Assembly (NCBI RefSeq): GCF_002117935.1
Contig: NZ_BDJE01000036.1
Span: forward strand, 62,001-126,000
Direction of reading: 5' to 3'
Source: Nocardioides sp. PD653-B2
Lineage (GTDB): Bacteria; Actinomycetota; Actinomycetes; Propionibacteriales; Nocardioidaceae
DNA length: 64,000 bases
Shown: one piece after another, positions 1,318-35,876 of the stretch
Position numbering within the stretch: position 1 is the first letter of the stretch
How the letters are laid out: the number at the start of each line of letters is the position of its first letter
The notes under the pieces: model-generated
Told to the model about the DNA's origin: nothing
Databases searched by the model: none
What the model saw: the letters and a program-made list of their open reading frames with translations, nothing else
Program-made: the position numbers and the translations under genes

Positions 1318-1411
1318 GCCGTGAGGATCGCGCCCACAACCTGCACTCTTCCTGAACGAACCGGCGCGGACGGTCAGGTCGTTGGCAGGCAACGCCTCCG
1401 ACTCTGGCTGC

Positions 1412-2470
1412 GTGAGCGCAATCCTGACGCACCCGAGGCAGCCGGCCGTCACGCTGGCGGCCGGAAGCCGCTGGATCCTCGGCTCGTGCGTCGGACTGGC
1501 GCTGCTGCTGGTCGCCCTGCCCGCTGCGGCCGGGGTGCCGTGGGCCGAGGTCTGGTCCGTGGTCGCCGGAGTCCCCGCCGCCGACCTCGCCGCGCTGGTC
1601 GCCCTGTGGGCGGTGGGGCTCCTGACCCACACGGTGACCCTCACCGCGGCGCTCCCGCGCCTCAGCCACCGCCGGGCCCTCACGATGAGCCTGACCGGCA
1701 GCGCGGTGGCGAACGTGCTGCCGATGGGCGGCGCGGCGGGCATCGCGGTCAACTACCGGATGGCCCGGCACTGGGGTTTCACCGGCGCCCAGTTCGCGAC
1801 GTACACCGTGGTGACCAACGCGTGGGACGTCCTCGCGAAGCTCGCCCTCCCGCTGGTCGCCGTGCCGACCCTGGCGCTCGTCGCCGATGCGGCCGTCGGC
1901 CCCTTCCTCGGCCCGTCCCTGGTCGTCGCGGCAGGACTGGCGCTCGCGGCGGGTCTGGCCGGGGTGGTGCTCGCCCGACCCGCAGCCGCAGACCTCGTCG
2001 GCGGCGCCGCCGAACGGGTGCTGGCAGGCGCACTGCGGATCGTCGGCTCGACGAGGCACGTCGGCGTCCGAGCTTCCCTCGTCGCCCTGCAGAGCAGCTG
2101 CAGCGACGTGGTCCGCACGCGGTGGGTACGCCTCAGCATCGGCATGCTGCTCTACACCGCCCTGCTCTTCGCCCTCCTGTGGGCGTGCCTCACCGTGACC
2201 GACACCGGGCTGGCTCCGGCCGCGGTGCTGGCCGGGTTCGCGGTCGAGCGTCTGCTGACCCTGGCGGGGATCACCCCGGGCGGTGCCGGGGTGGTCGAGG
2301 TCGGGCTGGCCGGCGCCCTGCTCGCGCTGGGCGGGAGCCCCGCGGGTGTCGTGGCGGGGGTGGTGCTCTACCGGGCGCTGACCTTCGGGCTGGAGATCCC
2401 GGTCGGCGGCCTCGGCCTGGCCGCGTGGGTCTGGGCCCGACGCGGGGACGCCCGGGCGGCGGTGGCGTGA
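1412..2470 (+). CDS. UPF0104 / lysylphosphatidylglycerol-synthase-like membrane protein
   Basis: A 352-aa membrane protein resembling the flippase-type N-terminal half of lysyl-phosphatidylglycerol synthase (UPF0104), without the aminoacyltransferase domain. Family members are thought to flip lipids or lipid-linked sugars. Visible hallmarks are about eight hydrophobic segments, the NVLPMGGAAGIAVNYRM stretch near residue 100 and GITPGGAGVVEVGL near residue 290. The GTG at 1412 is preferred; an in-frame TTG at 1382 would add 10 residues. Its stop overlaps the next start (TGATG), beginning a tightly coupled run of six genes to 8131. The substrate is probably a glycolipid made by its neighbours, by inference. 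Confidence 0.82.
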   Translation: MSAILTHPRQPAVTLAAGSRWILGSCVGLALLLVALPAAAGVPWAEVWSVVAGVPAADLAALVALWAVGLLTHTVTLTAALPRLSHRRALTMSLTGSAVANVLPMGGAAGIAVNYRMARHWGFTGAQFATYTVVTNAWDVLAKLALPLVAVPTLALVADAAVGPFLGPSLVVAAGLALAAGLAGVVLARPAAADLVGGAAERVLAGALRIVGSTRHVGVRASLVALQSSCSDVVRTRWVRLSIGMLLYTALLFALLWACLTVTDTGLAPAAVLAGFAVERLLTLAGITPGGAGVVEVGLAGALLALGGSPAGVVAGVVLYRALTFGLEIPVGGLGLAAWVWARRGDARAAVA

Positions 2471-22922: not shown

Positions 22923-23372
22923 ATGGAGCTCTTCGGCATCGCCCGATTCGAGCGTTTCTTCCGAGCGGCCGCCGGTCTCGACGTCGACAAGAGCGACCTG
23001 CGCCGCTTCGACGACTTCGTGAACGACAAGATCTACGACCTCCTGCTGCGCGGGCAGGCGAACGCGAAGGCGAACGGCCGCGACGTCATCGAGCCGCAGG
23101 ACCTGCCGATCACCAAGGGGCTCCAGGAGTCCATCCACGCCTTCAAGGCGATCGATCAGGAGCTGTCGCTGGAGCCGATCCTCGAGCAGCTCACCAGGCG
23201 GCCGCCGCTCGACGTGACCTACAGCGACGAGGCCCAGGCGCTGCTCCCGCTGGTCGCGGGCGGCCTGGGCGTCGCCCTCGCGCGGACGTTCCCGATCCTC
23301 GAGGAAGGCCTGGTGAACCCGCAGACCGTCCACTGGGACCGCGCCATCCGGATCTTCGACCTCCTGCTCTGA
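22923..23372 (+). CDS. DUF1931 histone-fold protein
   Basis: A 149-aa protein of the DUF1931 family, which has a pseudo-dimeric histone fold (two tandem helix-strand-helix units in one chain) known from Aquifex. The N-terminal unit covers about 5-75 (FERFFRAAAGLDVDKSDLRRFDDFVNDKIYDLL in parts) with RDVIEPQDLPITKG as the loop-strand; the second unit runs from KAIDQELSLEPILEQL to WDRAIRIFDLLL. AGGAGGA precedes the ATG. Family members are suspected DNA-binding or stress proteins; no function is established. Confidence 0.82.
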   Translation: MELFGIARFERFFRAAAGLDVDKSDLRRFDDFVNDKIYDLLLRGQANAKANGRDVIEPQDLPITKGLQESIHAFKAIDQELSLEPILEQLTRRPPLDVTYSDEAQALLPLVAGGLGVALARTFPILEEGLVNPQTVHWDRAIRIFDLLL

Positions 23373-23448
23373 CGAGCTGCCTCGGACAAGCCGGGAGGCC
23401 CGTCGAGCAGCCCGGCGCCGAGGTCCTCTACGGGGACCGGACCCGGCG

Positions 23449-23467
23449 TCACACGTTGAAGCGGAAC
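23449..23467. repeat. Left 19-bp direct repeat (candidate attL)
   Basis: TCACACGTTGAAGCGGAAC is identical, in the same orientation, to 34800-34818, where it is the last 19 bases of ychF. It marks the left edge of the interval whose content differs from its surroundings. No coding function here. Confidence 0.75.
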
Positions 23468-23552
23468 GATCACGCGGGGTTTCGGTGGTCGTGGGTCATC
23501 ACCGACTGCGACTGACAAACGCCGTCTGACCTACGGAAACGCGTTCGCGTGA

Positions 23553-24190
23553 CTATTGGAGGTCGTCGGCGATCGTCGGTCTCGGCCGAACTTCTTGCGG
23601 TCCATTTGCTGACCTGGGTCGCGGCGAGATCCCTCGGGCGAGGGCGGCGTCGAACAGCGTCCGGGCGACCTGCTCAGCCTTCTCGGTCGCCGCGGCACCC
23701 ACCGACTTCGCCTCGTAGCGTCCTGGTTGAGAGCGCGTCGCAGGCGGTCGAACTCTCGCGCCGCCCTTTCTGCGGGCGGCTTGTCGAAAACGGCGCGCAG
23801 GTAGCAGCCGAGCGCCTCGTCCTGGCCCGGCCCGTTGGTCGTCAGGAAGCCGTACGCCGCCAGCAGCGCCTCGCCCGTGTCGTGGCAGGCGTCGTAGGCG
23901 ATGCCGTATCTGACGACGAGGTTGGTGAGCAGCGGTAGTTGGTTCAGACGGTCCTCGGCCTGGCGCAGGAACGACGCTGCGCGCGCAGGATCCGCTTGTA
24001 CGGCCTCAAGACGGCGTGCCTCGACCAGCGCGAGCACGGTCGCCTGCTGGACGCGGGTGAGCGGGGGTCAGCGCCACGGCAGCTCCCCGACCACGGCGAC
24101 CGCCGGGCCGCTGCGCACGTTGCCCAGGAACCCGTAGAGCGGGGCGAACTCCGCAGCTGTGACGATCGTCGGGTTCAAGGGCCGGTGCAC
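23553..24190 (-). pseudogene. Degraded HEPN-like protein gene (in-frame stop plus frameshift)
   Basis: The minus-strand frame opens at GTG 24190 (HRPLNPTIVTAAEFAPLYGF), meets a TGA at 24068-24070 after ELPWR, and continues in the same frame as PPLTRVQQATVLALVEARRLEAV. Near 23719-23722 the frame breaks: one base is missing between ALNQD and a downstream reading RYEAKSVGAAATEKAEQVA, which runs to a stop at 23553. The helical body and the RRA-NQ-RYE segment resemble HEPN-domain proteins, often the toxin half of toxin-antitoxin or ribonuclease pairs. An alternative is a separate 40-aa ORF followed by a GTG-24037 gene with a frameshift. Either way the product is likely lost. Confidence 0.6.
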
Positions 24191-24336
24191 CGCGGCCTCC
24201 CTCCAACGTGAGGCCACGAGATCATCAGATCGAAGATGCTAAGCGCCGATAGCCGATCTGGTCAGGGTCCTCGTCCCCGTGCTCCACTCTGCGGCAACCG
24301 GAAGGATCTCTTCGACGAAGGTCCGATTCAAGGCGA

Positions 24337-25167
24337 TCACAGACTGACTAGCGCAATGGCGACGACGCTGAGCCCCAGACCCGCTGCCCGCACCTTGCCG
24401 AGGGGTTCGGCGAGAACTGTGACCGCCAGCAGGACGGTGACTGCCGGATACAGCGACGCGATCACGGCCGTGAGGGCGGTGGAGCCCCCGGTGGCTCCGA
24501 GCCGGAAGGCGAGGTGGCCGATACCGGCCACCGCACCTGCGACGACGGCGGGGACGACGACGGGCCCCGAAAATCCGCCGGAGGACCGGCTCATCGGGAA
24601 CAGAACGCAGGCGCCGATCAGCACGGAGAGTAGGACGGGCCACGCGCCCGCCCCCTCCGCGGAGCCGTAGGCCAGGTACATAACTCCGAATCCGCAGCCG
24701 GCAATCACGCCGTGCATAGCGCCAGATGCGGTCGACTGCGCCGTCTCCGGGTCCAAAGGTGTTTCGCCGGTTCCCGCGACGCACGCGAGCGCCGGAACGG
24801 CCAGGAGCCCTCCGACGATCGCTGTGGGACTGAGCGACTCCCCGGCCAGCAGGCCCCCCATCACCGGAACCGCCGCGCCGAACAGGGCGCTAAGAGGGGC
24901 CACGACGACCATGCTCCCGACCGCCAGGCCGCGATACAGCCCTAAACAGCCGATGATCAGCCCGACGCCGGCGACCATCCCGGCGACCAAAGACCCTGCG
25001 CCCAGGGGTGAGCCCTGCGCGCCCATGAACGTCAGGATAGGGACGAGTGCCCCCAGTTGACTTACCGCCGCGACATGGGTGGCCGCCGATCGCCGGGAAG
25101 CACTTCCGGCGAGGAAATCTGAAGCCCCGTAGCCAACAGCAGCAACCAGGGCGTAGATCGTGATCAG
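24337..25167 (-). CDS. EamA/DMT-family transporter (probable CTG start)
   Basis: A 276-aa drug/metabolite transporter with ten hydrophobic helices in two EamA repeats. The first in-frame ATG (25026) would remove the first helix and a half. Upstream the frame reads ITIYALVAAVGYGASDFLAG, the normal EamA N-terminus, and the only start there is CTG at 25165-25167, six bases after a clear AGGAG (forward ctcct, 25174-25178). I therefore use CTG. It could export a pathway intermediate or amino acid. It follows the amidohydrolase on the same strand after 240 bp without a recognisable gene. Confidence 0.75.
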   Translation of the reverse strand: MITIYALVAAVGYGASDFLAGSASRRSAATHVAAVSQLGALVPILTFMGAQGSPLGAGSLVAGMVAGVGLIIGCLGLYRGLAVGSMVVVAPLSALFGAAVPVMGGLLAGESLSPTAIVGGLLAVPALACVAGTGETPLDPETAQSTASGAMHGVIAGCGFGVMYLAYGSAEGAGAWPVLLSVLIGACVLFPMSRSSGGFSGPVVVPAVVAGAVAGIGHLAFRLGATGGSTALTAVIASLYPAVTVLLAVTVLAEPLGKVRAAGLGLSVVAIALVSL

Positions 25168-25408
25168 TGGGAACTCCTAGGTCTTCGGTGTGCACACTCG
25201 CGCGATCGGCCTGCCGCCATGAGGCCGGCTGCTGCGGTTGTTCGTCACGGCGATGGGCAAGGAGGGCGCGATCACCCGGAACTGGTATTCCATGCTTGTC
25301 GGCAGGGCACCGTCGCCGCCGGAGTCATGGCTGACAGGAGGGTGACGCCGCAGGGGAACCTGAAGAAGAGCTTCGCCCCCCATGTCCTAGCAGCGGGCTC
25401 TCGGGCAA

Positions 25409-27046
25409 TCATGCGGTGGTGTGCACAAGATTGCCGCCAAGGAAGACGTCGGTCACCGTGATGTCGACGAGCTCGTCGGGGCTGGTCGCCTCGGGATTGC
25501 GGTCCAGGGCGATGAGGTCGGCGAGCTTCCCGGCCTCGAGGGTCCCCCGCGTCTGCTCCTCACCCAAGGCGTAGGCGCCGCCGATCGTGTGCATTTTCAG
25601 CGCCTCGCGGATAGTGATGGCCTGGTCTTCGTTCAATGCATGCCCGTGGAAGGTGCGCCGAGCGACGCAGCTGGCGATGCTGAGGAACGGGTTCGTCTGT
25701 CCGATGTCCGACCCGACCCACACGTCGGAGCTCCCGGAGAGTGGCCAGCCGTCGTCGAGCATGCGCCGCAGCGGGAACTGACGGTGGCGCGAGTACTCGC
25801 CCACGTAGTTCGGCATGAACTCGGCGAAGTTCTTCATGAACACCGGTTGCGGAACCGGGACGATGCCGGCTTGCCGCCACGCGTCGCTGAGCTTCGGGTA
25901 GTCGGGGACGAAGTTTCCTGCATGCTCAATCCGGATCCGCGGGCCGCCGTTGCGCGGAAGCGTGGCCAACGCCTCGCACACATGAAACTGGGCGTGGTCA
26001 CCGTTCGCGTGAATCGCCAGCTGCAGTCCGGCCTCCGCCGTGGCCCGCGCGAGTTCGACGACCTGCTCGGTGGACACCGCGATCTCGCCGCAGTTGTGTC
26101 CGTCGCCGATTGCGTACGGGCGGCTGAGCGCCGCGCGGGCGGCGGAGTACCCGCCGTCCGCGAACGCCTTGACCCCCTGGACGCGGAGCAGGTCCCGTGA
26201 CGATCGCAGGCTGGACCACTTCGCCGGGTCGCACGCCTCCTCCAGGCTGACGGTTCCCGGTGTCCAGAAGTACACGTGGATCCGGACCGCGATACGACCT
26301 CCTGAGAGCGCGTCGTCGTAGACGTGGAGCCCTTCGTCGATGGTCTCGGAGATCTCCCCGATCGTCGTGACCCCGTGCGCTGTGAACAGGTCCCGAATTC
26401 CGCGCTCGACGGCTGTCCGCGCCTCCTCGCCGGTCAGGGCCGGGAATGGCAGCAGCTTGTCCATCTCCGTGACGATGCCCGTCGGGCGACCGGAGGCGTC
26501 GCGTTGCACGGTCGGCTTACCCGTGACGCTGTAGTCGACCGCCCGGTAGTGCTCGTCGATACCCGCCAGCTCGAGGGCACGGGAGTTAAGAACGCTGAGG
26601 TGACCGCCGGCGCGGATCGCGATCGCGACGTCCGCACTGACCGAGTCGAGCTCCTTCCGTGTCGGGAACCGCCCGTCGGTGAGCTTCTGGTCGAAGAACA
26701 GGTTGCCCTGAGCGACCAGCCAGCCTTCCCGCGCCCGGTCGAGGTTGTCGCGCAGCACGTCGAGGACCGCCGCGATGTCCGAGCACCCAGGTGCACGGAC
26801 GTCGACCATGGAGTAGGCCGCCTTCGCCGCCACCTCGGCATGCACGTGGGGGTCCACGAAGCCCGGCATCAGGATGCGCGTCCCGAGGTCGACGACCTCC
26901 TCACACGCCGCCTCGGCCGATGCGAGGCTGTGGACGTCGACCACGTGTGCGATGCGTCCGTCCCGGACCACGACTCCTCCAGGTCCGTCGATCTCCTCCG
27001 CGGACAGCGTCAGGACGTGATCGCCCTTGATGAGGGTGCTCGACAT
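25409..27046 (-). CDS. YtcJ-like metal-dependent amidohydrolase
   Basis: A 545-aa amidohydrolase of the YtcJ/N-substituted formamide deformylase group. The first metal motif is GFVDPHVH near residues 61-68; later motifs include IAIRAGGHLSVLNS, GVKAFADGGYSAARA (Lys ligand region), LAIHANGDHAQ (His near 340) and RIEHAGNF, and the C-terminal strand GTLEAGKLADLIALDRNP. Family members cleave amides or formamides. It is followed on the minus strand by the EamA gene and preceded 4 nt away by the EthD gene, so it belongs to the catabolic operon. Substrate unknown; probably an amide released after monooxygenation. Confidence 0.85.
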   Translation of the reverse strand: MSSTLIKGDHVLTLSAEEIDGPGGVVVRDGRIAHVVDVHSLASAEAACEEVVDLGTRILMPGFVDPHVHAEVAAKAAYSMVDVRAPGCSDIAAVLDVLRDNLDRAREGWLVAQGNLFFDQKLTDGRFPTRKELDSVSADVAIAIRAGGHLSVLNSRALELAGIDEHYRAVDYSVTGKPTVQRDASGRPTGIVTEMDKLLPFPALTGEEARTAVERGIRDLFTAHGVTTIGEISETIDEGLHVYDDALSGGRIAVRIHVYFWTPGTVSLEEACDPAKWSSLRSSRDLLRVQGVKAFADGGYSAARAALSRPYAIGDGHNCGEIAVSTEQVVELARATAEAGLQLAIHANGDHAQFHVCEALATLPRNGGPRIRIEHAGNFVPDYPKLSDAWRQAGIVPVPQPVFMKNFAEFMPNYVGEYSRHRQFPLRRMLDDGWPLSGSSDVWVGSDIGQTNPFLSIASCVARRTFHGHALNEDQAITIREALKMHTIGGAYALGEEQTRGTLEAGKLADLIALDRNPEATSPDELVDITVTDVFLGGNLVHTTA

Positions 27047-27050
27047 GCTG

Positions 27051-27344
27051 TCAGCTCTGCCGGGCGATGTTGAGCACGGTCACGCCGGCGCCGGCGAAGT
27101 TCGCCAGGTCGTCGACAGAGGCGCGTCCGGGCTCGGACGAGAACGACTCGGCCGCGTCCTCGGCGCTGTCGTACGTCAGCCGGGCGACCACGTAGTAGGG
27201 CGAGTCACTCTCGGCGGGCTTCCCCCAGCTGAACTCACGCAGCTTCGGCAGCATGTCAACGAGCGGAGCGTGCGTGCTGGCGTAGTGCGCGTCGAACTCC
27301 TCGGGGGAGGACGGGTGGTTGTAGAGGACGATCACGTCGTGCAT
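27051..27344 (-). CDS. EthD family protein
   Basis: A 97-aa ferredoxin-like alpha-beta barrel protein. The opening HDVIVLYNHPSSPEEFDAHYASTHAPLVDMLP has the conserved HYxxTHxPLV motif of EthD proteins, found beside oxygenases and dehalogenases as small isomerase or accessory units. The ATG at 27344 follows GAGAGG. Its stop lies 4 nt from the amidohydrolase start. It is 122 nt downstream of the permease gene. Confidence 0.83.
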   Translation of the reverse strand: MHDVIVLYNHPSSPEEFDAHYASTHAPLVDMLPKLREFSWGKPAESDSPYYVVARLTYDSAEDAAESFSSEPGRASVDDLANFAGAGVTVLNIARQS

Positions 27345-27466
27345 GAGGAGAGGCCTTTCAAGGGGATCGGTGGGCGAACGTCGCCGGGACGGGGAACCAG
27401 GTAGCCCGGCCCCGGCGACGCCTCGCGTGGGGTGGAGGAGCTGCGCTGCCCGGGGGCTCGCGGCTG

Positions 27467-29014
27467 TCAGCCGGCTCCGCTCGCGCGGGGACCGAGCACC
27501 GGCAGCTCGGATCGCGCCGGCGCCGGCTCCGGTGTCACCGGGCCGGGTTCGACGTCGCCGACGGGCGGAGCATCCTGGGTGCCGGCCTGCGGGACCCGCG
27601 TCCGGCGGCCGTACCCGCCGAGCCCGAACGGCGCGACGAGAACTCGGACCGCGACCACGTAGACGACACCCGCGACGATCGCCGAGGGGAAGGAGGCGGT
27701 GAGGTACTGGAACGGCGGGCGGTAGACGTAGGTCACGGGGTCGAGCAGGTAGATGTAGACCGCGATGCCAGCGGCGAACCCCAGGAAGCCGGCCGGGTTG
27801 ACGCCGGCGACGTAGAAGTACGCGGACGACTTGTCGAGCTGGTACAGCGAGCGCACGTCGTAGCGCTGCCGACGCAGGATGAACCAGTCGGCGACCTGGA
27901 TGCCGCAGATGGGCGCGAACGCCACGCCGAGGAACGCCAGGAAGATCGAGAAGAACGAGTTCGCGGACGTTGCGAACAGGGCGACGATCACCATGGCCGG
28001 CACCGACACCAGGAAGATCGTCCACTTCCAGGACAGCTTGTCCGCCTTGGGCAGCTGACGGATGGCCAGGCTGGCCGCGTAGATGCCCATCATCGCTGTA
28101 CCGACGTTGGCGACGAGGAGGAACACGAGCATGACGGCACCGACCAGGAGACCTCCCTGGCTGACCAGGAAGTCGGTCGGGTCGCCGCCCGACCCGCTGA
28201 CCGCAACGCCGGTGTAGAGACCGGTCAGTGACCCCAGTCCGACGCCGAGCCCGAACCCGATGACGACGGGCCACAGGGAGCCGCGCGCGCTGGGGCTGGT
28301 GCGGACGATGGTGCCGATGTAGGCCCACCAGGACAGGTTGGACGCGATGAGGACCTCGATGGCGCTGGCCCAGTTGCCGGCGCCCTGTGGGTACGGCGAG
28401 ACCGCGACCGCGTCCACGACCCCGCTCACCCCCACCCGCTGCACCAGCAGGAGGAGGATCACCAGGCTCATCACAGCGACCACGACCGCGATGATCGGGC
28501 CGCGGCTCCGAACGTACTCCGGACCCTTGCGGATCAGGTCCAGCACGATGAAGATCGCGAGGACGCCGACGATCTTCACGCAGAGGTCGAAGTGCGAACG
28601 GTCCATGATGTCGAACGAGACCAGCAGCTCGGCGATCGCGCGTCCCTTGTAGATGAACAGGAGGATGCTCCAGCCCATCGCGGAGCAGTAGACCAGGATG
28701 AGCGACACGTACGAGCCGCGTGTGCCGAGCTGCGCGCGGCTGGCGATGACGGAGTCGATGCCGTACTTCGAGCACATCGGCAGCGTCGCGAGCGTCACCA
28801 GCAGGATCCCGAGCAGCGCGCCCGCGAGCGTGGCGAACGTCCCGGTGGTGGCCGAGAGGTAGTAGGCGACGAAGCCGCCGATGGTGAAGCACCAGGTCGC
28901 CATGGCGGCCGAGAATGCGGCCAGGAAGATGGCGGTCTTCCCGAAGCCGCGCTCGGAGCGCATGAGCGGCCAGCCGTTCTCCTCGGCCAGCTTGGCCGAT
29001 CCCAGGATGCTCAC
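27467..29014 (-). CDS. NCS1-family permease (cytosine/purine/hydantoin type)
   Basis: A 515-aa permease with twelve hydrophobic helices and a Pro-rich cytoplasmic tail (about 465-515). N-terminal text SAAMATWCFTIGGFVAYYLSATTG and the mid SWWAYIGTIVRTS and FAPICGIQVADWFILRR segments match the NCS1 nucleobase:cation symporter family, which carries cytosine, allantoin, hydantoins, uracil or thiamine. GTG at 29012-29014 overlaps the stop of the 52-aa membrane gene. Its position between the monooxygenase and amidohydrolase points to import of the pathway's nitrogen heterocycle or amide substrate. Confidence 0.87.
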   Translation of the reverse strand: MSILGSAKLAEENGWPLMRSERGFGKTAIFLAAFSAAMATWCFTIGGFVAYYLSATTGTFATLAGALLGILLVTLATLPMCSKYGIDSVIASRAQLGTRGSYVSLILVYCSAMGWSILLFIYKGRAIAELLVSFDIMDRSHFDLCVKIVGVLAIFIVLDLIRKGPEYVRSRGPIIAVVVAVMSLVILLLLVQRVGVSGVVDAVAVSPYPQGAGNWASAIEVLIASNLSWWAYIGTIVRTSPSARGSLWPVVIGFGLGVGLGSLTGLYTGVAVSGSGGDPTDFLVSQGGLLVGAVMLVFLLVANVGTAMMGIYAASLAIRQLPKADKLSWKWTIFLVSVPAMVIVALFATSANSFFSIFLAFLGVAFAPICGIQVADWFILRRQRYDVRSLYQLDKSSAYFYVAGVNPAGFLGFAAGIAVYIYLLDPVTYVYRPPFQYLTASFPSAIVAGVVYVVAVRVLVAPFGLGGYGRRTRVPQAGTQDAPPVGDVEPGPVTPEPAPARSELPVLGPRASGAG

Positions 29015-29169
29015 AGCGCCACCCCGACCGCGATGAGGATCGCCGGGACCACGACGGTCACGACGAGGAACCAGAAGTAGTCGGCCTTCGTCAGCGCGAC
29101 GCCCTGCTGGTCTGCGCTGAGGATCTGCTGACAGCGGAGCTCGAGCTCTGCGGGCAATGACTTGGACAT
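29011..29169 (-). CDS. 52-aa single-pass membrane protein coupled to the NCS1 permease
   Basis: A 52-residue protein: a charged N-terminal 30 residues (LPAELELRCQQILSADQQG) and one C-terminal helix FWFLVVTVVVPAILIAVGVAL. The ATG at 29167-29169 follows GAGAGAG-rich leader sequence, and its stop overlaps the permease GTG, so translation is coupled. Such tiny partners are known for other symporters (for example the small subunits of acetate- and pantothenate-type permeases), but I know of none assigned to NCS1. It may stabilise the permease. Confidence 0.7.
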   Translation of the reverse strand: MSKSLPAELELRCQQILSADQQGVALTKADYFWFLVVTVVVPAILIAVGVAL

Positions 29170-29204
29170 GGTTGCTGCTCTCTCTCTGTGGAGGTCCGCC
29201 GCCG

Positions 29205-30275
29205 CTAGCGCGTGGCCGCGGTGGGGTCGACGACGGGGATGACCTCGCGGCCGATGAGCTCCAGTGAGCGCTTGATGTTCTCGTGTCCGAATCCGTCGAT
29301 GCGGAGCAGGACCTCGTCCACGCCCATCGCCTCGAGCCGGTGGATGCGCTCGATGAAGTCCTCGGGCGTGCCGATCATGACCGAGGGGGTGTACTCGCAG
29401 AGCCAGTTGAGGTCGTCCTGGTGCTCGATCAGCTTGTCGAGGGTGTCGAGGTAGGTGTAGCCGGGCTTTTGCGACAAGGGGATGTAGAGGTCGAGGATGA
29501 ACTTGAAGTAGTCCATGGCGATGTCGTGCGCGATGCGACGCGCCTCGTCGCGGTCCGCGGCGCAGTAGGCGGTGGCGACGTAGACGCCGCGGTAGTCGTT
29601 GGGTGCGGCCACGTTCGACAGGTCGGCCGCGTCGAACGCGATCCGATAGGCGTCGAGGCATTCCTGGAGGTAGTCGAAGCCGAAGTAGTTGTCGAACGTG
29701 ATGGCGCCGATGCCACGAGTACCTGCGTTGCCGTGGCTCTCCACGCTCGAGGCGGCCACCGACACGGCCGGGTGCGGCTTCGTGAAAGGCTTGGGAACGA
29801 CCTCGACGGGGGGGATCTTCCAGATCGGTCCGTCGTGCTCGAGCTTCTCGTCGACCATGGCCTTCATGAGCACGTCCATGCCGTCCTCCCACTGATCGCG
29901 CGTCTCGGCCGGGTCGACGCCGAACGCGCGCAGGCTGGTGAGGTTGTTCGAACGGGCCGTGCACACCTCTGCCCGGCCCCGCGAGACGATGTCGAGGGTC
30001 GCGAGCCGCTCGGCAACCAGGATCGGGTGGTTCCACTTCAGCATGACCGACGCCATCGTCCGCAGCTTGATGTTCTTGGTCCGCATCGCGATCGCGGAGT
30101 AGAGGACCTCGGGGGCCGCGACCGAGAAGCTCGGCGGCGTGAAGTGCTGCTCGGAGGTGCCCCAGGTGGAGAACCCGAGGCTGTCAGCGAGAGCGACCTC
30201 GTCGATCAGCTGGTGGTAGCGATCCGCCACCGTCGTGCCGGTGAGGTCGCCCTCTTGCAGGAGTCCTACACGCAT
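29205..30275 (-). CDS. LLM-class flavin-dependent monooxygenase
   Basis: A 356-aa bacterial luciferase-like TIM-barrel protein that uses reduced FMN from a partner reductase. The start MRVGLLQEGDLTG, ADSLGFSTWGTSEQHFTP near 34-51, RTMASVMLKWNHPILVAERLATLDIVSRGRAEVCTA in the 85-125 region and VAASSVESHGNAGTRGIG near 183 are typical LLM elements. It probably oxidises the imported substrate; a flavin reductase is encoded at 33592-34113. It is first in the minus-strand operon (monooxygenase, 52-aa protein, permease, EthD, amidohydrolase, EamA) and divergent from the Lrp-type regulator. Confidence 0.88.
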   Translation of the reverse strand: MRVGLLQEGDLTGTTVADRYHQLIDEVALADSLGFSTWGTSEQHFTPPSFSVAAPEVLYSAIAMRTKNIKLRTMASVMLKWNHPILVAERLATLDIVSRGRAEVCTARSNNLTSLRAFGVDPAETRDQWEDGMDVLMKAMVDEKLEHDGPIWKIPPVEVVPKPFTKPHPAVSVAASSVESHGNAGTRGIGAITFDNYFGFDYLQECLDAYRIAFDAADLSNVAAPNDYRGVYVATAYCAADRDEARRIAHDIAMDYFKFILDLYIPLSQKPGYTYLDTLDKLIEHQDDLNWLCEYTPSVMIGTPEDFIERIHRLEAMGVDEVLLRIDGFGHENIKRSLELIGREVIPVVDPTAATR

Positions 30276-30402
30276 GGTTCGTACCTTCCGTTTGGCGTTG
30301 CTGTTCGTTGTCGTTCTGGGCACGGGTGCCGGGGTTGTCGACGGCGCTGAGGCGGTTTCACGCTGCGCTGTCGCAGCCGACCGATCCCGTAGGGTGGCGG
30401 CC

Positions 30403-31443
30403 ATGTCGTCGCAGGTCGCTACTGGAATCGATGAGGGCCCCGACGCGTCCGGCGTGTTGGCGGCTGCGGACAACGCCGCCGACCTGGACGAGCTGGACCT
30501 GCGGCTGATCGACGAGCTTCAGCGGGACGGCCGCGTGCCGTTCGCGGAGGTGGCGCGTCGCATCGGTGTCACGGAGAAGACGGTGCGTCGCCGGGTGTCG
30601 CGGCTCATCGAGCAACGCTTCATCACCATCGCCGCGGTCACCGATCCTGCGATCCTGGGCTTCGGTTGCATGGCCTTGGCGTTGATCACGACTGACGGAT
30701 CGCGTCCGCCGACCGAGCTTGCCGCCGAGCTCGCCCGGCTGCCTGAGGTGGACTATGTGTCCGTCACGACCGGGCCCTTCGCGATCCAGGTCGAGCTGAT
30801 GAGCTCGACCCCCGCTGCAGTCCACGCGGTGGTCTCGGACCGGATCCGACCGGTCACCGGCGTGGCTTCCGTGGAGGTGCTTCCCTACCTCCGACTGCAC
30901 TACCAGCAGGCGCACCTCTCCCCGGTCCGGGAGAGGTCCGACGGCGTTCGTCCCCGCCCCCTCGACGAGACCGACCGCGCGATCATCGCCTATCTCGCGG
31001 CCGACGGCCGTGCACCCCTGCGGGACCTCGCCCCTGCGCTGCAGGTCTCCGAAGCAAAGATCCGGTTCCGGTACAACAAGTTGGTCGAGTCCGGCGCCGT
31101 CCGGGTCATGTGCATCGTCAACCCCTTGCGGCTGGGCCACCACTTCACGAGCTGGGTGGCAATCCGCGTCGGCCAGCACGGTCGCGCCGAGGATGTTGCC
31201 GAGGCGTTGACCCACCTGGCGTCCGTCTCGTACGTCGCGATCACCGCAGGGCGGTGCGACGTGCTGGCCGAGGTCGTCGCCGACTCCGGTGAGCACCTGC
31301 TGGGCATCCTGGACGGGGAGATCCGGTCCGTCGACGGGGTGGTCGAGGTGGAGTCGTGGCTGTACGTGGCCGTCTACTACAAGGCGATTCGGCCGCGCCG
31401 TGCACTCGACGATGATCACGCCAGCGACATCCAGACCGTCTGA
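30403..31443 (+). CDS. Double Lrp/AsnC-family regulator
   Basis: A 346-aa protein consisting of two complete Lrp/AsnC units in tandem. Unit 1 has an HTH at about 30-75 (DLRLIDELQRDGRVPFAEVARRIG) and a RAM ligand domain to 170; unit 2 has an HTH from DETDRAIIAYLAADGRAPLRDLA (about 190-235) and a second RAM domain. Typical Lrp is 150-170 aa, so this is a fused duplication as in several actinobacterial regulators. TAGGGT (30390-30395) lies 7 nt before the ATG, suggesting a leaderless message. It probably controls the divergent monooxygenase operon and the aldehyde dehydrogenase, whose 3' end it overlaps. Confidence 0.87.
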   Translation: MSSQVATGIDEGPDASGVLAAADNAADLDELDLRLIDELQRDGRVPFAEVARRIGVTEKTVRRRVSRLIEQRFITIAAVTDPAILGFGCMALALITTDGSRPPTELAAELARLPEVDYVSVTTGPFAIQVELMSSTPAAVHAVVSDRIRPVTGVASVEVLPYLRLHYQQAHLSPVRERSDGVRPRPLDETDRAIIAYLAADGRAPLRDLAPALQVSEAKIRFRYNKLVESGAVRVMCIVNPLRLGHHFTSWVAIRVGQHGRAEDVAEALTHLASVSYVAITAGRCDVLAEVVADSGEHLLGILDGEIRSVDGVVEVESWLYVAVYYKAIRPRRALDDDHASDIQTV

Positions 31444-32912
31444 GTGTCGAGGTACTTGGAGAGGCCCTCGTAGCCGCAGTCCTTGCCGATGCCGGAGCTC
31501 TTGAAGCCGCCGAACGGCGCCGCCGCGTGATAGTCCGCGTAGGTGTTGACCCACACCAGGCCCGACTGGATCTGCTGCGACACGGCGTGCGCCTTGCGAA
31601 CGTCATTGGTCCACACACCTGCAGTGAGGCCGTAGTGCGACTTCGCCAGTCGGGGCATCAGCTCCTCGACGGTGTCGAAGACCTGGATGTTGAGCACCGG
31701 CCCGAAGATCTCGTCGGTGATGACCCGGTCGTCATCGCCGGCACCGACGATCGCGGTCGGCTCCAGGAAGTACCCCGGGCGGTCGACGCGCGAGCCGCCG
31801 AAAGCGACCTTCGCTGCCGAACCGGCGACGCCGTTCAGGTACGACTCCACCTTGTCGCGGTGCTGCGCGGAGGCGAGCGGTCCCATGGTCGTGTCCCGGT
31901 CGAGGCCGGCGCCCAGCACAAGACCCTGCGCGTACTGCTGGATGACGTCGAGCACCTCGTCGAGCGCGGCGCGCTCGACCATCAGGCGCGAACCGCTGAA
32001 GCACACCTGGCCGGAGTAGAAGAAGGCCGTCACGGCGGCCGCGGTCGCGGCCTTCGTGAGGTCGGCATCCGCGAAGATGACGTGCGGGTTCTTGCCGCCC
32101 AGCTCGAGCGAGATGTGCTTGAGGTTCCCGCCGGCGGAGGCGCCCAGCAAGCGTCCCGTGCGCTCGGACCCCGTGAAGGAAATCTTGGCGACGTCGGGAT
32201 GCGACACCAGTGCCTGGCCGGTTACGCCGCCGGTCCCGGTGACCACATTCAGCGTGCCGTCGGGCAGGCCGGCCTCCGTGGCGAGCTCCGCGAGTCGGAG
32301 TGAGGACAGCGAGGTCAGCTCCGACGGCTTGAGCACGACCGTGTTCCCAGCCGCGAGGGCCGGGGCGATCTTGATCGCAGCCTGGCAGAGCGGGAAGTTC
32401 CACGGCGTGATCGCGGCGACGACCCCGAGGGGCACCCGGCGGGTGTAGACGTGGGCCTGCGGGGTGTCCACCGGCACCACGTCGCCCGTGAGTTTCGTCG
32501 GCCAGCCCGCGTAGTACCTGAACTGCTCGACCGCGAGCGGCAGGTCGACCGCCTCGACGTACGACACGGGCTTCCCAGCCTCGTGAGCGTCGTAGGCAGC
32601 GAGCTCGGCGGCGTGCTCCTCGATGAGGTCGGCGAAGCGGTGGATGGCCGCCTCCCGTCGACCGGCAGTCAGCTGCCCCCACTCGCCGCGGAAGGCCGAG
32701 CTCGCGGCGGCCACGGCGGCATCGACGCCCTCGTGCCCGGCCTCCGACACCTGCGTGATCACCTCACCGGTCGACGGGTCGACCGTGTCGATCATGTCGG
32801 CGGACGGCGCACATGCCCGGCCGTTGATGAAGGCGCCGTGCGGGGCGCTGGCAAAGTCCCACCAGGCCTCGGACATCTCCTGGCCTGTGTGGGTGGCGGT
32901 GGTGGTGGTCAT
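31416..32912 (-). CDS. NAD(P)-dependent aldehyde dehydrogenase
   Basis: A 498-aa ALDH superfamily enzyme. Catalytic features are TPWNFPLCQAAIKIAPALAAGN (residues about 160-180), FTGSERTGR, LELGGKNPHVIF (general base Glu near 265) and YSGQVCFSGSRL (nucleophile Cys near 298), with PFGGFKSSGIG close to the end. It oxidises an aldehyde, presumably one released in this catabolic route. ATG 32912 is chosen because GAGGAG lies just upstream. It overlaps the convergent Lrp gene by 28 nt and is divergent from the SnoaL gene. Confidence 0.92.
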   Translation of the reverse strand: MTTTTATHTGQEMSEAWWDFASAPHGAFINGRACAPSADMIDTVDPSTGEVITQVSEAGHEGVDAAVAAASSAFRGEWGQLTAGRREAAIHRFADLIEEHAAELAAYDAHEAGKPVSYVEAVDLPLAVEQFRYYAGWPTKLTGDVVPVDTPQAHVYTRRVPLGVVAAITPWNFPLCQAAIKIAPALAAGNTVVLKPSELTSLSSLRLAELATEAGLPDGTLNVVTGTGGVTGQALVSHPDVAKISFTGSERTGRLLGASAGGNLKHISLELGGKNPHVIFADADLTKAATAAAVTAFFYSGQVCFSGSRLMVERAALDEVLDVIQQYAQGLVLGAGLDRDTTMGPLASAQHRDKVESYLNGVAGSAAKVAFGGSRVDRPGYFLEPTAIVGAGDDDRVITDEIFGPVLNIQVFDTVEELMPRLAKSHYGLTAGVWTNDVRKAHAVSQQIQSGLVWVNTYADYHAAAPFGGFKSSGIGKDCGYEGLSKYLDTQTVWMSLA

Positions 32913-32952
32913 GGTTTCCGCTCCTCGTCTGCAAGTTCTTGTCGCGGGGCCC

Positions 32953-33002
32953 GTGACGTAGGTCACCAGGCGGCAGGAACGTTATACGTGACATCTCGTG
33001 AC
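32953..33002. promoter_or_regulatory. GTGAC operator cluster between ALDH and SnoaL genes
   Basis: A perfect inverted repeat GTGAC-GTAG-GTCAC (32953-32966) is followed by two direct GTGAC copies (32988-32992 and 32998-33002). A TATAAC candidate -10 for the ALDH gene (forward gttata, 32981-32986) lies among them. The arrangement suits a multimeric regulator such as the double-Lrp protein. The 215-bp region contains no gene. Confidence 0.55.
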
Positions 33003-33136
33003 CACAAGACCCGAATTCGCAATCTTGCTTCTATTTCGAGCCGGATATCGCTAACGTGGCGGCAGTCACAGCGCCGCCTGAGGCGTCGGCCTACGTGGAC
33101 CGACTGCGTTAGACCACTCGGATTGAGATGAGACCC

Positions 33137-33592
33137 ATGACCCTGATTGACCATCGTGGCCCTGCCACAGCCGCCTCGCCCGTCGAGCCGGGACGTCTGG
33201 TGCATCAAGCACTCGTGGACGTCTGGAACAGCGGCGAGGTCGACCAGCTCGACGCGCTTCTCGCGGCGGACTATGTGCGCCACGGTCGCGCCGAGGACAC
33301 CGACAAGAACCACATCAAGCAGACGATCCAGGAAGCCCGAGCAGCGTTCCCGGACATGCGGACCGTGGCCGAGCACCAACTCGTCGACGGCGACCTGGTG
33401 GCGACCCACTGGCGGTGCACCGGCACCCATGAGGGCCCCTTCTACGACCTCCCAGTGACCCACCGGCGAGTCGACATCGAAGGCATGACGTTCTCGCGTC
33501 TGCACAACGGCCAGATCGTCGAGGAGTGGGAGTCATGGTCGAAGTCGGACCTGTTCTCGAGCCTCGGCGTGGCGAACCTCTGGGAGGCGTGA
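33137..33592 (+). CDS. SnoaL-like ester cyclase / polyketide-cyclase family protein
   Basis: A 151-aa NTF2/SnoaL-fold protein. Conserved elements are VHQALVDVWNSGEVDQLDALLAADYVRH, THWRCTGTHEGPFYDLPVTHRRVDIEGMTFSRLHNGQIVEEWESWS in pieces, ending with the DLFSSLGV helix. The fold supports small-molecule cyclase, hydrolase or isomerase roles. ATG 33137 is preferred over 33128 since GATGAG lies 5 nt before it. Its stop overlaps the flavin reductase start (TGATG), so these two form an operon. Confidence 0.8.
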   Translation: MTLIDHRGPATAASPVEPGRLVHQALVDVWNSGEVDQLDALLAADYVRHGRAEDTDKNHIKQTIQEARAAFPDMRTVAEHQLVDGDLVATHWRCTGTHEGPFYDLPVTHRRVDIEGMTFSRLHNGQIVEEWESWSKSDLFSSLGVANLWEA

Positions 33593-34113
33593 TGACGGAC
33601 ACCCTGATCGACCAGCTGCTCGCCGAGCCGACGCTCGACGACATCAGGAACTTCCACCGGAAGTTCGTCACCGGCGTCACCATCGTGACGACGATGGACG
33701 GTGACGAGCCGCGCGGCCTGGCGCTCAACGCCTTCAGCAGCGTGACCCTCGATCCGGCCATGGTGCTCGTGTGCGTCGCCAAGTCGTCCAGCACCCACGA
33801 CGCCCTGTTCTCCGCGAGTCACTTCGCGGTCAATCTGCTCAGCCGCGAGCAACTGGCGGTGGCGAAGCGCTTCGCAACCAAGTCCTCCGACAAGTTCGCC
33901 GGCCTCGATTGGCACGAAGGGCCGACCGGGTGCCCGATCATCGAAGACAGCTGCGCCCACCTGGAGGCCGAGATCAGCATGCGCGTGCGGACGTCCACCC
34001 ACACGGTGTTCTTCGGTCGCGTCGTCCACGCTCGCAGCAGTGACGTCGACCCCTTGGTCTACCTCGGTTCAGCGTTCTTCGATGGAGCGCGACTGGAGCC
34101 GTTGACGACCTAG
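33592..34113 (+). CDS. Flavin reductase (HpaC/RutF-like)
   Basis: A 173-aa flavin reductase-like FMN-binding split-barrel protein. FRKFVTGVTIVTT near 25, GLALNAFSSVTLDPAMVLVCVAKSSSTHD near 45-73, HFAVNLLSREQ and the C-terminal FFGRVVHA match the family. It supplies reduced FMN and is the natural partner of the LLM monooxygenase at 29205-30275, although encoded in a different transcript. It is the last gene of the catabolic region. Confidence 0.9.
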   Translation: MTDTLIDQLLAEPTLDDIRNFHRKFVTGVTIVTTMDGDEPRGLALNAFSSVTLDPAMVLVCVAKSSSTHDALFSASHFAVNLLSREQLAVAKRFATKSSDKFAGLDWHEGPTGCPIIEDSCAHLEAEISMRVRTSTHTVFFGRVVHARSSDVDPLVYLGSAFFDGARLEPLTT

Positions 34114-34799
34114 CCGCCAGGACCGGCAGGGCCCGGCTGCCCGCGTTCTAGAGTGTCCGGAAGCGCGGGCCGGCTCGGCGGGCGTCGCTGGGCAAGTTTG
34201 CCCCAACGCGACGGTGGAGCACGCCCAACCGGATTCGAACCGGCGCTACGCCGTGAAGGTGGCGACCGAGAGGTAACGGACGACACCTGAACCGGCGCCC
34301 GGTCTCGCGGTGACGAGGGCCGGCTGCGCCATGAGGCGGCACCGGGTTGGAGAGCAGCCCCCACGGGGGACGCCCGCTTCAGGCGCTTTGTAAGTCGACG
34401 GCTCGGTCCCGTGATCGCCGCGAGTGACGGATCCGGTTGAGCGACGTTGGCATCGGAGTGCCCTCCGAGACAGGGTGCGACTTACTCTTGCCTAGCCAGC
34501 ATGCGCTCCGGTGACCCGTTCGTCATGGCCAATCGGGGGACCCAGGGTAGGGATACGTCGGTGCACGAGCGCGAGCGCTGACAGGATGGCACCGCCGACA
34601 CCCACGAAGAGGGCAGCACTCCTGATGGTGCCGATCGCATGCCAGGGCCGCGCGACGCGACACGGACGGGGGTGGCCGTCCCAGGCCGCCACTGGCCAGG
34701 CTTGATCCCTGCCCGATCTTCGAGCGCTTGGCTGAAATTCTTGCGGGTTCTGTCTGCGCACGGGGAGGGGTCACACCCCTTCTGCGCAAACGCGCCGAT
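34114..34799. other. Gene-poor 686-bp stretch at the right end of the island
   Basis: No protein gene is supported here. It contains the tRNA-Glu remnant (34221-34260). A minus-strand frame near 34500-34650 encodes one hydrophobic stretch (SAALFVGVGGAILSALALVH) but lacks a good start and ribosome site. No integrase or transposase fragment is recognisable in any frame I read. Confidence 0.5.
34221..34260 (-). pseudogene. tRNA-Glu 3'-half remnant
   Basis: On the minus strand the sequence reads CTTCACGGCGTAGCGCCGG followed by TTCGAATCCGGTTGGG. This is the anticodon-arm-to-T-arm part of actinobacterial tRNA-Glu (T loop TTCGAAT, TTC anticodon context). The T stem pairs, but no complementary 5' acceptor strand or D arm is found upstream, so it is a fragment. 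Such pieces are commonly left by integration at tRNA genes. Confidence 0.55.
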
Positions 34800-34818
34800 T
34801 CACACGTTGAAGCGGAAC
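34800..34818. repeat. Right 19-bp direct repeat (candidate attR, end of ychF)
   Basis: Same sequence and orientation as 23449-23467. Here it encodes the last codons (FRFNV and stop) of ychF on the minus strand. An element inserted at this point would keep ychF intact, as integrases targeting gene 3' ends usually do. Confidence 0.75.
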
Positions 34819-35876
34819 TCCACGACGTCGCCGTCGGCCATCACGTAGTCCTTGCCCTCCATGCGCACCCTGCCGGCCTCCTTGGCCTTGAGCATGGAGC
34901 CGGCCGCGACCAGGTCGTCGAAGGAGACGATCTCGGCCTTGATGAAGCCGCGCTGGAAGTCGGTGTGGATGACGCCGGCGGCCTCGGGAGCGGTCGCGCC
35001 CTGGGGGATGGTCCAGGCGCGGGTCTCCTTGGGGCCTGCCGTCAGGTAGGTCTGCAGGCCGAGGGTGTCGAAGCCGACGCGGGCGAGGGTCTCGAGGCCG
35101 GGCTCGGTGACGCCCATCTCGGCGAGCATCTCGCGCGCCTCCTCGTCGTCGTCCAGCTCGACCAACTCGGCCTCGAACTTCGCGTCCAGGAAGATCGCCT
35201 CGGACGGCGCGACCAGCGCACGCATCTTGTCCTTGAGCGCCTCGTCGGCCAGCTCGTCGGCGTCGCAGTTGAAGACGTAGATGAAGGGCTTCGCGGTCAT
35301 CAGGGAGAGCTCGCGGATCGCCGCACGGTCGACCTTGGTCGCGATGATCGGCGTGCCGGCCTCGAGGTGTCCGAGCGCCTCCTTGGCCGCCTCGACGACG
35401 GGGGCAAGAGCCTTGTTGGTCTTGGCCTCCTTCTCCAGCCGCGGGATCGCCTTCTCGACGGTCTGGAGGTCGGCGAGGATCAGCTCGGTCTGGATCGTCG
35501 AGATGTCGTTGCCGGGGTTGACCTCGCCGTCGACGTGGGTGACGTCCTCGTCGCGGAAGACCCGGGTCACCTGGCAGATCGCCGCGGACTCCCGGATGTG
35601 GGAGAGGAACTTGTTGCCCAACCCCTCGCCCTCGGAGGCGCCGCGCACGATGCCGGCGATGTCGACGAACTCGACGGTCGCGGGCAGGATCCGGGCCGAC
35701 CCGAAGATCTCGGCGAGCTGCGGCAGCCGCTCGTCCGGGACGCCCACCACCCCGACGTTGGGCTCGATCGTCGCGAACGGGTAGTTCGCCGCGAGGACGT
35801 CGTTCTTGGTCAGAGCGTTGAAAAGGGTCGACTTGCCCGCGTTGGGGAGACCGACGATGCCGATGGTGAGTGCCAC
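34800..35876 (-). CDS. ychF: Redox-regulated ATPase/GTPase YchF
   Basis: A 358-aa Obg-family P-loop protein that hydrolyses ATP and binds ribosomes. G1 is GLPNAGKST (9-17), G3 DIAGIVRGASEGEGLGNKFL near 70, and the ATP-specifying NxxE-type position lies in IYVFNCDADE; the C-terminal TGS-like domain holds RAWTIPQGATAPEAAGVIHTDFQRGFIKAE in pieces and the conserved end VVEFRFNV. GTG start; TAGACT 8 nt upstream suggests a leaderless message. Its last 19 nt form the island repeat. Confidence 0.95.
   Translation of the reverse strand: MALTIGIVGLPNAGKSTLFNALTKNDVLAANYPFATIEPNVGVVGVPDERLPQLAEIFGSARILPATVEFVDIAGIVRGASEGEGLGNKFLSHIRESAAICQVTRVFRDEDVTHVDGEVNPGNDISTIQTELILADLQTVEKAIPRLEKEAKTNKALAPVVEAAKEALGHLEAGTPIIATKVDRAAIRELSLMTAKPFIYVFNCDADELADEALKDKMRALVAPSEAIFLDAKFEAELVELDDDEEAREMLAEMGVTEPGLETLARVGFDTLGLQTYLTAGPKETRAWTIPQGATAPEAAGVIHTDFQRGFIKAEIVSFDDLVAAGSMLKAKEAGRVRMEGKDYVMADGDVVEFRFNV

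Follow-up and report, generated by a model that had tools for sequence, protein, structure and literature searches.

What do the genes at positions 24,337 to 34,113 of a 64,000-nucleotide stretch of Nocardioides sp. PD653-B2 (contig NZ_BDJE01000036.1, positions 62,001 to 126,000; the whole stretch is hereafter the window) do together, and do they form one pathway? They encode an LLM (bacterial-luciferase family) monooxygenase, a flavin reductase, an NCS1-family permease, an aldehyde dehydrogenase (ALDH), a small EthD-family protein, a YtcJ-like amidohydrolase, here called AmiH, and a double Lrp/AsnC regulator (Table 1). The initial annotation had proposed an undescribed oxidative route for an N-heterocycle or amide, with import, FMNH2-dependent oxygenation, aldehyde oxidation and amide hydrolysis arranged in a logic resembling Rut-type uracil degradation. 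We estimate a probability of about two in three that these genes are a catabolic cluster spread by horizontal transfer and acting on a polar N-heteroaromatic compound of the pyridine type, whose ring would be opened and trimmed to succinate precursors.

To see how far the genes travel together, we considered the loci returned by one scan in which an LLM alignment of four rows, by way of two peptide patterns, was run against 84,980 species genomes; such a search is not exhaustive. The scan gave 25 loci in Actinomycetota and Pseudomonadota, and 23 were counted after L036 (22% identity, a chance match) and L029 (a truncated near copy of the window) were dropped. By identity and coverage thresholds, with some of the queries (those for NCS1 excepted) taken from the counted loci themselves, the flavin reductase was found at all 23 loci (many copies only ~30% identical to that of the window), the double Lrp at 22, AmiH and ALDH at 20 each, EthD at 19 and NCS1 at 18, although the effective number of loci is smaller than 23 because L024 to L027 are close relatives, as are L034 and L035, and L027 and L028 lie in the same genome. 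The neighbourhood of LLM, NCS1, YtcJ and EthD, whose recurrence the initial annotation had put forward as a check, is thus conserved across two phyla, each core gene being present at between 18 and 23 of the 23 loci, and this conserved content supports its idea of one oxidative unit. The order of the genes is shuffled between lineages while their content is kept, and we therefore argue that selection acts on the content. AmiH is present in 20 of the 22 LLM genomes, with every best E value at 5.8e-123 or lower; in one genome (G195) a 45% paralogue scores best because the 70% copy runs off the end of a contig, and L012 lacks AmiH at the locus because the contig ends there, with an AmiH piece at 70% elsewhere in the same genome. 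Outside such genomes the genes are rare: among 394 sampled genomes of the class, the LLM (E<=1e-110) was found only in the genome of the window itself, and AmiH (E<=1e-90) in that genome and in one of the other 393, while the cluster had one relative, of the same genus, among 195 genomes searched (its own included). The genes could instead be loose catabolic neighbours without one common pathway, as the lack of conservation of an EamA-like and a SnoaL-like gene in the same stretch would suggest, but the recurrence of the core set in rearranged order and on two plasmids, together with the rarity of AmiH, makes this very improbable.

The oxygenases found beside AmiH at other loci bear on what the cluster degrades. 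Twelve loci have an AmiH relative but lack this LLM (the count leaves out L071, with an AmiH fragment only, and L047, a second set in A. crystallopoietes), and eight of them have a protein resembling the MHPC oxygenase of vitamin B6 breakdown (MHPCO), a class A FAD flavoenzyme that opens a pyridine ring and yields E-2AMS. Two of these MHPCO-like proteins, each from one of the eight loci, were compared with the PDB and matched MHPCO best (1e-65 and 1e-68), the next other enzyme lying near 1e-22. L068 and L069, with AmiH but no LLM of this group, have another LLM together with a flavin reductase and a SnoaL protein; L063 and L066, of the same description, lie near contig ends, and no MHPCO-like protein was seen on the short contig of L063. 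MHPCO-like proteins (E<=1e-60) occur in five of the 394 sampled class genomes, and in the one that also has AmiH (G238) the two adjoin. In M. palustre (L031) the LLM itself has an MHPCO relative at a distance of ~5 kb, and the window genome has no match to MHPCO at E<=1e-20. A tree of the AmiH proteins places the one from the MHPCO cluster of NGR234 inside the proteobacterial LLM-cluster AmiHs, as the sister of L033 (support 100/100). Residues W261, D350, Y414, W434 and W443 (20 of 20 LLM-cluster rows) and E234 (19 of 20) are the same in the five closest MHPCO-side rows and mostly differ in four distant ones. Because MHPCO-side AmiH nests in this way and has these residues in common with the LLM side, one type of hydrolase has, by sequence, been coupled to different ring-opening oxygenases. 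At the eight MHPCO loci no copy of this ALDH, of EthD or of the flavin reductase passes the thresholds (for EthD, 0 of 8 vs 19 of 23 LLM loci), which would be expected if cleavage of the MHPCO type yields an acid and that of the LLM type an aldehyde.

A second case comes from plasmid pLDW-10 of A. crystallopoietes, which carries a cluster of the kind described here (L006) and a second set (L047) consisting of PucR, a BCCT transporter, another LLM that shares only 25% identity with the first, a member of the carboxymuconolactone decarboxylase family, a protein of 191 residues, and copies of the flavin reductase, ALDH, EthD and AmiH that are 70%, 86%, 88% and 85% identical, respectively, to those of the first set. 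The second AmiH copy groups in the tree with the first copy and L013 (100/99). With these four genes duplicated beside a different oxygenase, the downstream module has thus been reused; the second set probably serves a second, betaine-like substrate.

AmiH itself is proposed to be an N-formyl-enamide hydrolase. Residues H67, H69, K293, H346, H375 and D441, which are of the metal-ligand type and by analogy with the superfamily would bind the metal, are kept in 20 of 20 aligned LLM-cluster rows. R84 and R126 are likewise present in all 20 rows, with other residues in the PyrC columns, a hint of an extra carboxylate on the substrate that is too weak to use. A function is here proposed for a group of YtcJ-like amidohydrolases whose closest solved structures, two in number, each carry the label uncharacterised. 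A gene for a CobW/COG0523-type GTPase lies near the clusters L007, L022, L023 (10761-11714), L028 and L030 and is recurrent in Pseudomonadota; this protein would perhaps supply metal, as a chaperone for AmiH.

The LLM is proposed to be a ring-cleaving, FMNH2-dependent oxygenase. Its group is compact, with members 59-86% identical to the window LLM, while all other rows of the tree set are at 40% or less. The best of these is the LLM of plasmid p2MP (40%) from Arthrobacter sp. 68b, the plasmid on which a pyr pathway for pyridine degradation was reportedly described by Casaite in 2020. With five long rows taken out of the tree, the 25 LLMs of the group, including that of the window, form one branch (91/96) with the p2MP LLM as its sister (100/98). 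One p2MP stretch holds an LLM, a flavin reductase, succinate-semialdehyde dehydrogenase (SSADH)-type ALDHs and a YtcJ-family amidohydrolase, and the window has a flavin reductase, an ALDH and a YtcJ-type amidohydrolase in one cluster too. The two systems also differ: the amidohydrolases are 26% and the ALDHs 30-34% identical, the annotation of the p2MP stretch shown names no NCS1, EthD or Lrp, and the SSADH of p2MP has no counterpart in the window cluster. Two TpdA-like LLMs follow at 38% and 36% identity, the first of which adjoins a gene annotated TpdB, and the window LLM lies outside their branch. As for its structure, the predicted model (pLDDT 89) matches luciferase-family proteins best in fold, and the best solved sequence match is PuwE (2.5e-26); no close solved relative of the LLM was found.

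TpdA-like LLMs adjoin either TpdB or an SgcJ/EcaC-family protein, which presumably has a SnoaL-like fold, and a flavin reductase is nearby in R. opacus. The tpd set has, by contrast with the YtcJ hydrolase and Lrp regulator of the window, an amidase-family hydrolase and a LuxR-type regulator, and the window cluster has no amidase domain. The tpd pathway degrades tetramethylpyrazine in Rhodococcus (PMC6099782). By way of these p2MP and TpdA-like LLMs and the MHPCO-like proteins, an N-heterocycle, as the initial annotation had suggested, is the best-supported substrate class on sequence grounds, and the substrate is probably a polar pyridine.

From gene identities, gene conservation and the coupling of hydrolase and oxygenase, we infer the following reactions, their order and the class of substrate. 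The NCS1 permease, with a small membrane partner, would take the compound in. The flavin reductase would provide FMNH2 to the LLM oxygenase, which would use it with O2 to open the ring next to the nitrogen, giving an N-formyl enamide that bears an aldehyde. EthD, a putative isomerase or helper acting on this ring-opened aldehyde, may isomerise the product, and the ALDH is proposed to oxidise the aldehyde to an acid. AmiH would then take the formyl group off as formate, leaving an unstable enamine that would break down to ammonia and succinic semialdehyde, and an SSADH encoded inside or outside the cluster would convert the latter to succinate. Control of the cluster probably falls to the double Lrp protein; an alignment of 13 actinobacterial intergenic regions between Lrp and LLM displayed no conserved operator. 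A RibBA gene lies near the clusters L007, L018 and L023, and its presence would fit a demand for flavin.

The proposed end product draws on SSADH-like enzymes of two kinds at four of the 23 loci. Directly after AmiH, the loci L013 and L031 encode an ALDH that among NCBIfam models fits NF010575 best (succinate-semialdehyde dehydrogenase, presumably the Sad type), and L015 has one with TIGR01780 as its best model, presumably the GabD type; in L022 a TIGR01780-type ALDH directly follows the cluster ALDH. That SSADH-like enzymes of two kinds have joined the clusters points to succinic semialdehyde as the product, the compound expected from a pyridine ring minus one carbon lost as formate.

A similar sequence of steps is known for the degradation of trigonelline (tgn), in which an oxygenase system opens the ring and aldehyde oxidation and formamide hydrolysis then lead to succinic semialdehyde; the tgn pathway is not known to include an NCS1. 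The vitamin B6 route offers a parallel at the hydrolysis step, as an N-acyl-aminomethylene succinate is hydrolysed there to succinic semialdehyde, and MHPCO relatives stand beside AmiH relatives. Its oxygenase is a class A FAD enzyme whereas that of the window is an LLM, and the window genome has no MHPCO match at E<=1e-20. Hydrolysis of E-2AMS yields acetate, CO2 and ammonia besides succinic semialdehyde, and the nucleophile of the E-2AMS hydrolase is Ser106 (PMC3538738), in contrast to the metal-dependent YtcJ type. The pyr, tgn, tpd and vitamin B6 ring-opening routes are closer parallels than Rut, to which the initial annotation had compared the cluster. The Rut system of E. coli uracil degradation does combine an LLM, a flavin reductase and a permease, but the window LLM is only 18% identical to RutA (the longest branch on the LLM tree) and therefore does not belong to a Rut system; the window reductase scores 73.8 bits where the cut-off for RutF is 254.75, and no Pfam match of any cluster protein is to a domain of the RutB, C, D or E types, the Rut proteins themselves not having served as queries. 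On these three grounds a Rut-type pathway was rejected.

The same evidence bears on a broader alternative, in which the compound oxidised would be a pyrimidine, a hydantoin or something like a lactam; the LLM would act on its amide-bearing ring like RutA and AmiH would cleave a ureide or imide. Pyrimidines, hydantoins and allantoin are typical cargo of NCS1 carriers, and L013 adjoins genes that by eye resemble those of urate degradation, both of which favour this route. However, besides the distance from RutA and the missing partner domains, AmiH relatives stand beside MHPCO-like proteins, and from the SSADH-like neighbours one would expect a semialdehyde with four carbons, not malonic semialdehyde, so that we regard it as unlikely.

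The NCS1 of the window is a divergent member of its family by sequence, scoring 85.3 bits against a gathering score of 23.5 for PF02133 and 353.1 for TIGR00800, and it has no solved relative at E<=0.001 (phmmer); it is the proposed importer of the substrate. Its gene follows that of a small membrane protein which the initial annotation had missed. Across loci this protein has 48-91 residues and one hydrophobic helix, with a common pattern of Q-G ahead of the helix and then D/E-Y in actinobacterial rows. It lies ahead of NCS1 at all 13 actinobacterial loci that were looked at (the window included) and in three of five proteobacterial regions; of the other two, the L026 region was taken on the opposite flank of NCS1 and does not count as examined. 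At 14 of the 15 loci besides the window, an in-frame NCS1 start is possible that its end would overlap by four bases, as in the window, and a similar small protein precedes a second NCS1 gene of the same genome (L075, near 1103-1453, minus strand). The window copy has no NCBIfam match and the A. crystallopoietes homologue no Pfam match. The small protein is a possible partner of the transporter and might represent a subunit type new to transporters. Some loci have other transporters: glycine-betaine-type ABC transporters are present in L028 and L030, both of which lack NCS1 above threshold, and branched-chain-type ABC genes were read by eye near L022 and L033.

The transporters other than NCS1, and the methylotrophic habit of some hosts, leave room for N-methylated pyridinium compounds. 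As a sub-case of the pyridine reading, an N-methylpyridinium or a betaine of the nicotinamide type would be degraded, with AmiH releasing an N-methylformamide-derived amine and formate. Such methylotrophic hosts include Hyphomicrobium, Hansschlegelia and Ancylobacter; the glycine-betaine-type transporters of L028 and L030 and the BCCT transporter of the parallel A. crystallopoietes set would suit such a charged compound. Since NCS1, with its mostly uncharged known substrates, is present at 18 of 23 loci, and L030 has a distant NCS1-like gene (24%) in addition to its ABC transporter, this narrower version appears doubtful to us.

Several observations indicate that the cluster moves. The plasmids pLDW-10 and pYKAM101 each carry LLM, Lrp, AmiH, ALDH, EthD, flavin reductase and NCS1. 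On pYKAM101 (L007/L048), which was obtained by capture from an environmental source and which PLSDB types as mobilizable, the catabolic set lies between two copies of ISPman1 in the manner of a composite transposon; in the part of the main text of the pYKAM101 paper available to us, the words "monooxygenase" and "oxidoreductase" are absent. In the window, GC content in 2-kb steps is 66.5-69.5% across 24-36 kb vs 68.9-76.1% elsewhere, consistent with acquired DNA. An empty site could not be demonstrated in stretches of 10-18 kb from five congeners, which lie mostly on the 3' side of ychF, the sole match among 23 window proteins tried. The window has no tRNA genes, and positions 23300-35000 have no Rfam match up to E 1; a string resembling a tRNA T-arm is present at 34220-34246 (minus strand), at the right edge of the low-GC stretch, also with no Rfam match up to E 1.

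A number of points weigh against a pyridine ring-opening cluster as outlined above. ALDH and YtcJ are broad families, and no NCBIfam model reached its cut-off for them (among the best 25 of 44 matches for each). Nine of the 12 AmiH loci without this LLM come from genomes picked for having it, the others being L045, L046 and L076, and the MHPCO locus L076 has another ALDH gene, as read by eye. In the full 38-row LLM tree the deep order, and with it the place of the p2MP LLM, does not resolve, and the group itself is not joined at 80% support, its two LLM branches staying apart; the sister position of the p2MP LLM in the reduced tree depends on a row that is itself flagged as long. The labels PyrA (for the LLM) and PyrC that are used for p2MP are not found in the annotation of the record. 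Two similar loci from metagenome-assembled genomes, L034 and L035, consist of LLM, Lrp and flavin reductase but lack AmiH, EthD and ALDH, and no AmiH turned up anywhere in the two genomes at E<=1e-60; their downstream route may differ from that of the other loci. As to the end product, none of the four SSADH-like ALDHs (L013, L031, L015 and L022) reaches its curated cut-off, the models that L016's second ALDH matches best are for betaine aldehyde and not SSADH, and the window cluster contains no SSADH, the four SSADH-like ALDHs elsewhere in its genome scoring 530-573 bits vs a curated cut-off of 646.

A more far-reaching version can be put forward only tentatively. The cluster would be one form of a widespread module, carried in part on plasmids and transposons, in which one YtcJ hydrolase (with ALDH-EthD where an aldehyde is left) is combined with at least three interchangeable flavin oxygenases, namely the LLM of the window, a second LLM unrelated to it and a class A enzyme resembling MHPCO. 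The window LLM would act on an unactivated polar pyridine with a carboxyl or N-alkyl group, a compound to which no gene has been assigned, NCS1 would need the small partner, and EthD would be a dedicated isomerase. The chemistry is ordinary, and it is the modularity and breadth that are unusual. Our reading predicts an N-heteroaromatic catabolic route common to two phyla, and three kinds of oxygenase with one type of hydrolase suggest how bacteria assemble new routes for degrading pollutants or alkaloids. Regarding the claim that the pathway is undescribed, literature searches, with most subscription papers out of reach, turned up no description of this cluster, but pathways of its kind are known from the pyr, tgn, tpd and vitamin B6 systems.

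The gene families named in the initial annotation were borne out at their places by Pfam and NCBIfam matches, and its picture of divergent transcripts needs some correction. The minus-strand run consists, in order, of the LLM, the 52-residue membrane protein, NCS1, EthD and AmiH. The Lrp gene is divergent from that of the LLM and ends tail-to-tail with the ALDH gene, which is on the minus strand, and SnoaL and the flavin reductase form a separate plus-strand pair (33128-34113).

Table 1. Genes of the cluster and its neighbours, in window coordinates; start points of the genes are our reading.
Feature	Position	Strand	Supporting match or remark
EamA-like fragment	24337..25026	-	PF00892 3.3e-08, single stretch, residues 128-228
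AmiH, YtcJ-like Amidohydro_3 hydrolase	25409..27046	-	Pfam PF07969 4.8e-73
EthD-family small protein	27051..27344	-	PF07110 6.6e-10; TIGR02118 2.4e-22
NCS1-family permease	27467..29014	-	PF02133 5.2e-24
Single-helix membrane protein, 52 aa, unannotated	29011..29169	-	4-base overlap with NCS1 start
LLM (bacterial-luciferase family) monooxygenase	29205..30275	-	Bac_luciferase PF00296 2.8e-39
Double Lrp/AsnC regulator	30403..31443	+	two HTH_AsnC and two AsnC ligand-domain stretches (Pfam)
Aldehyde dehydrogenase (ALDH)	31416..32912	-	Aldedh PF00171 2e-158
SnoaL-like protein, accessory	33128..33592	+	PF07366 1.6e-30
Flavin reductase	33592..34113	+	Flavin_Reduct PF01613 3.1e-42

Two genes of the stretch are not part of the conserved core. 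The EamA transporter, listed as a member in the initial annotation, was rejected as one that probably does not belong: its open reading frame starts inside the fold, the frame upstream resembles the first helix with no ATG, GTG or TTG before a stop (region 24337-25200, minus strand), and none of 30 loci searched has a relative (tblastn, E<=1e-3). Because it has no usable start and no relative in those loci, it is probably a 5'-damaged neighbour, possibly truncated at the edge of an island. SnoaL was rejected as a core enzyme since, besides the window and its near copy L029, it is present at only two of the 23 LLM loci. SnoaL and the flavin reductase are paired at L012, L015, L068 and L069 as well as in the window, with different types of LLM, which suggests that the pair is a small unit of its own.

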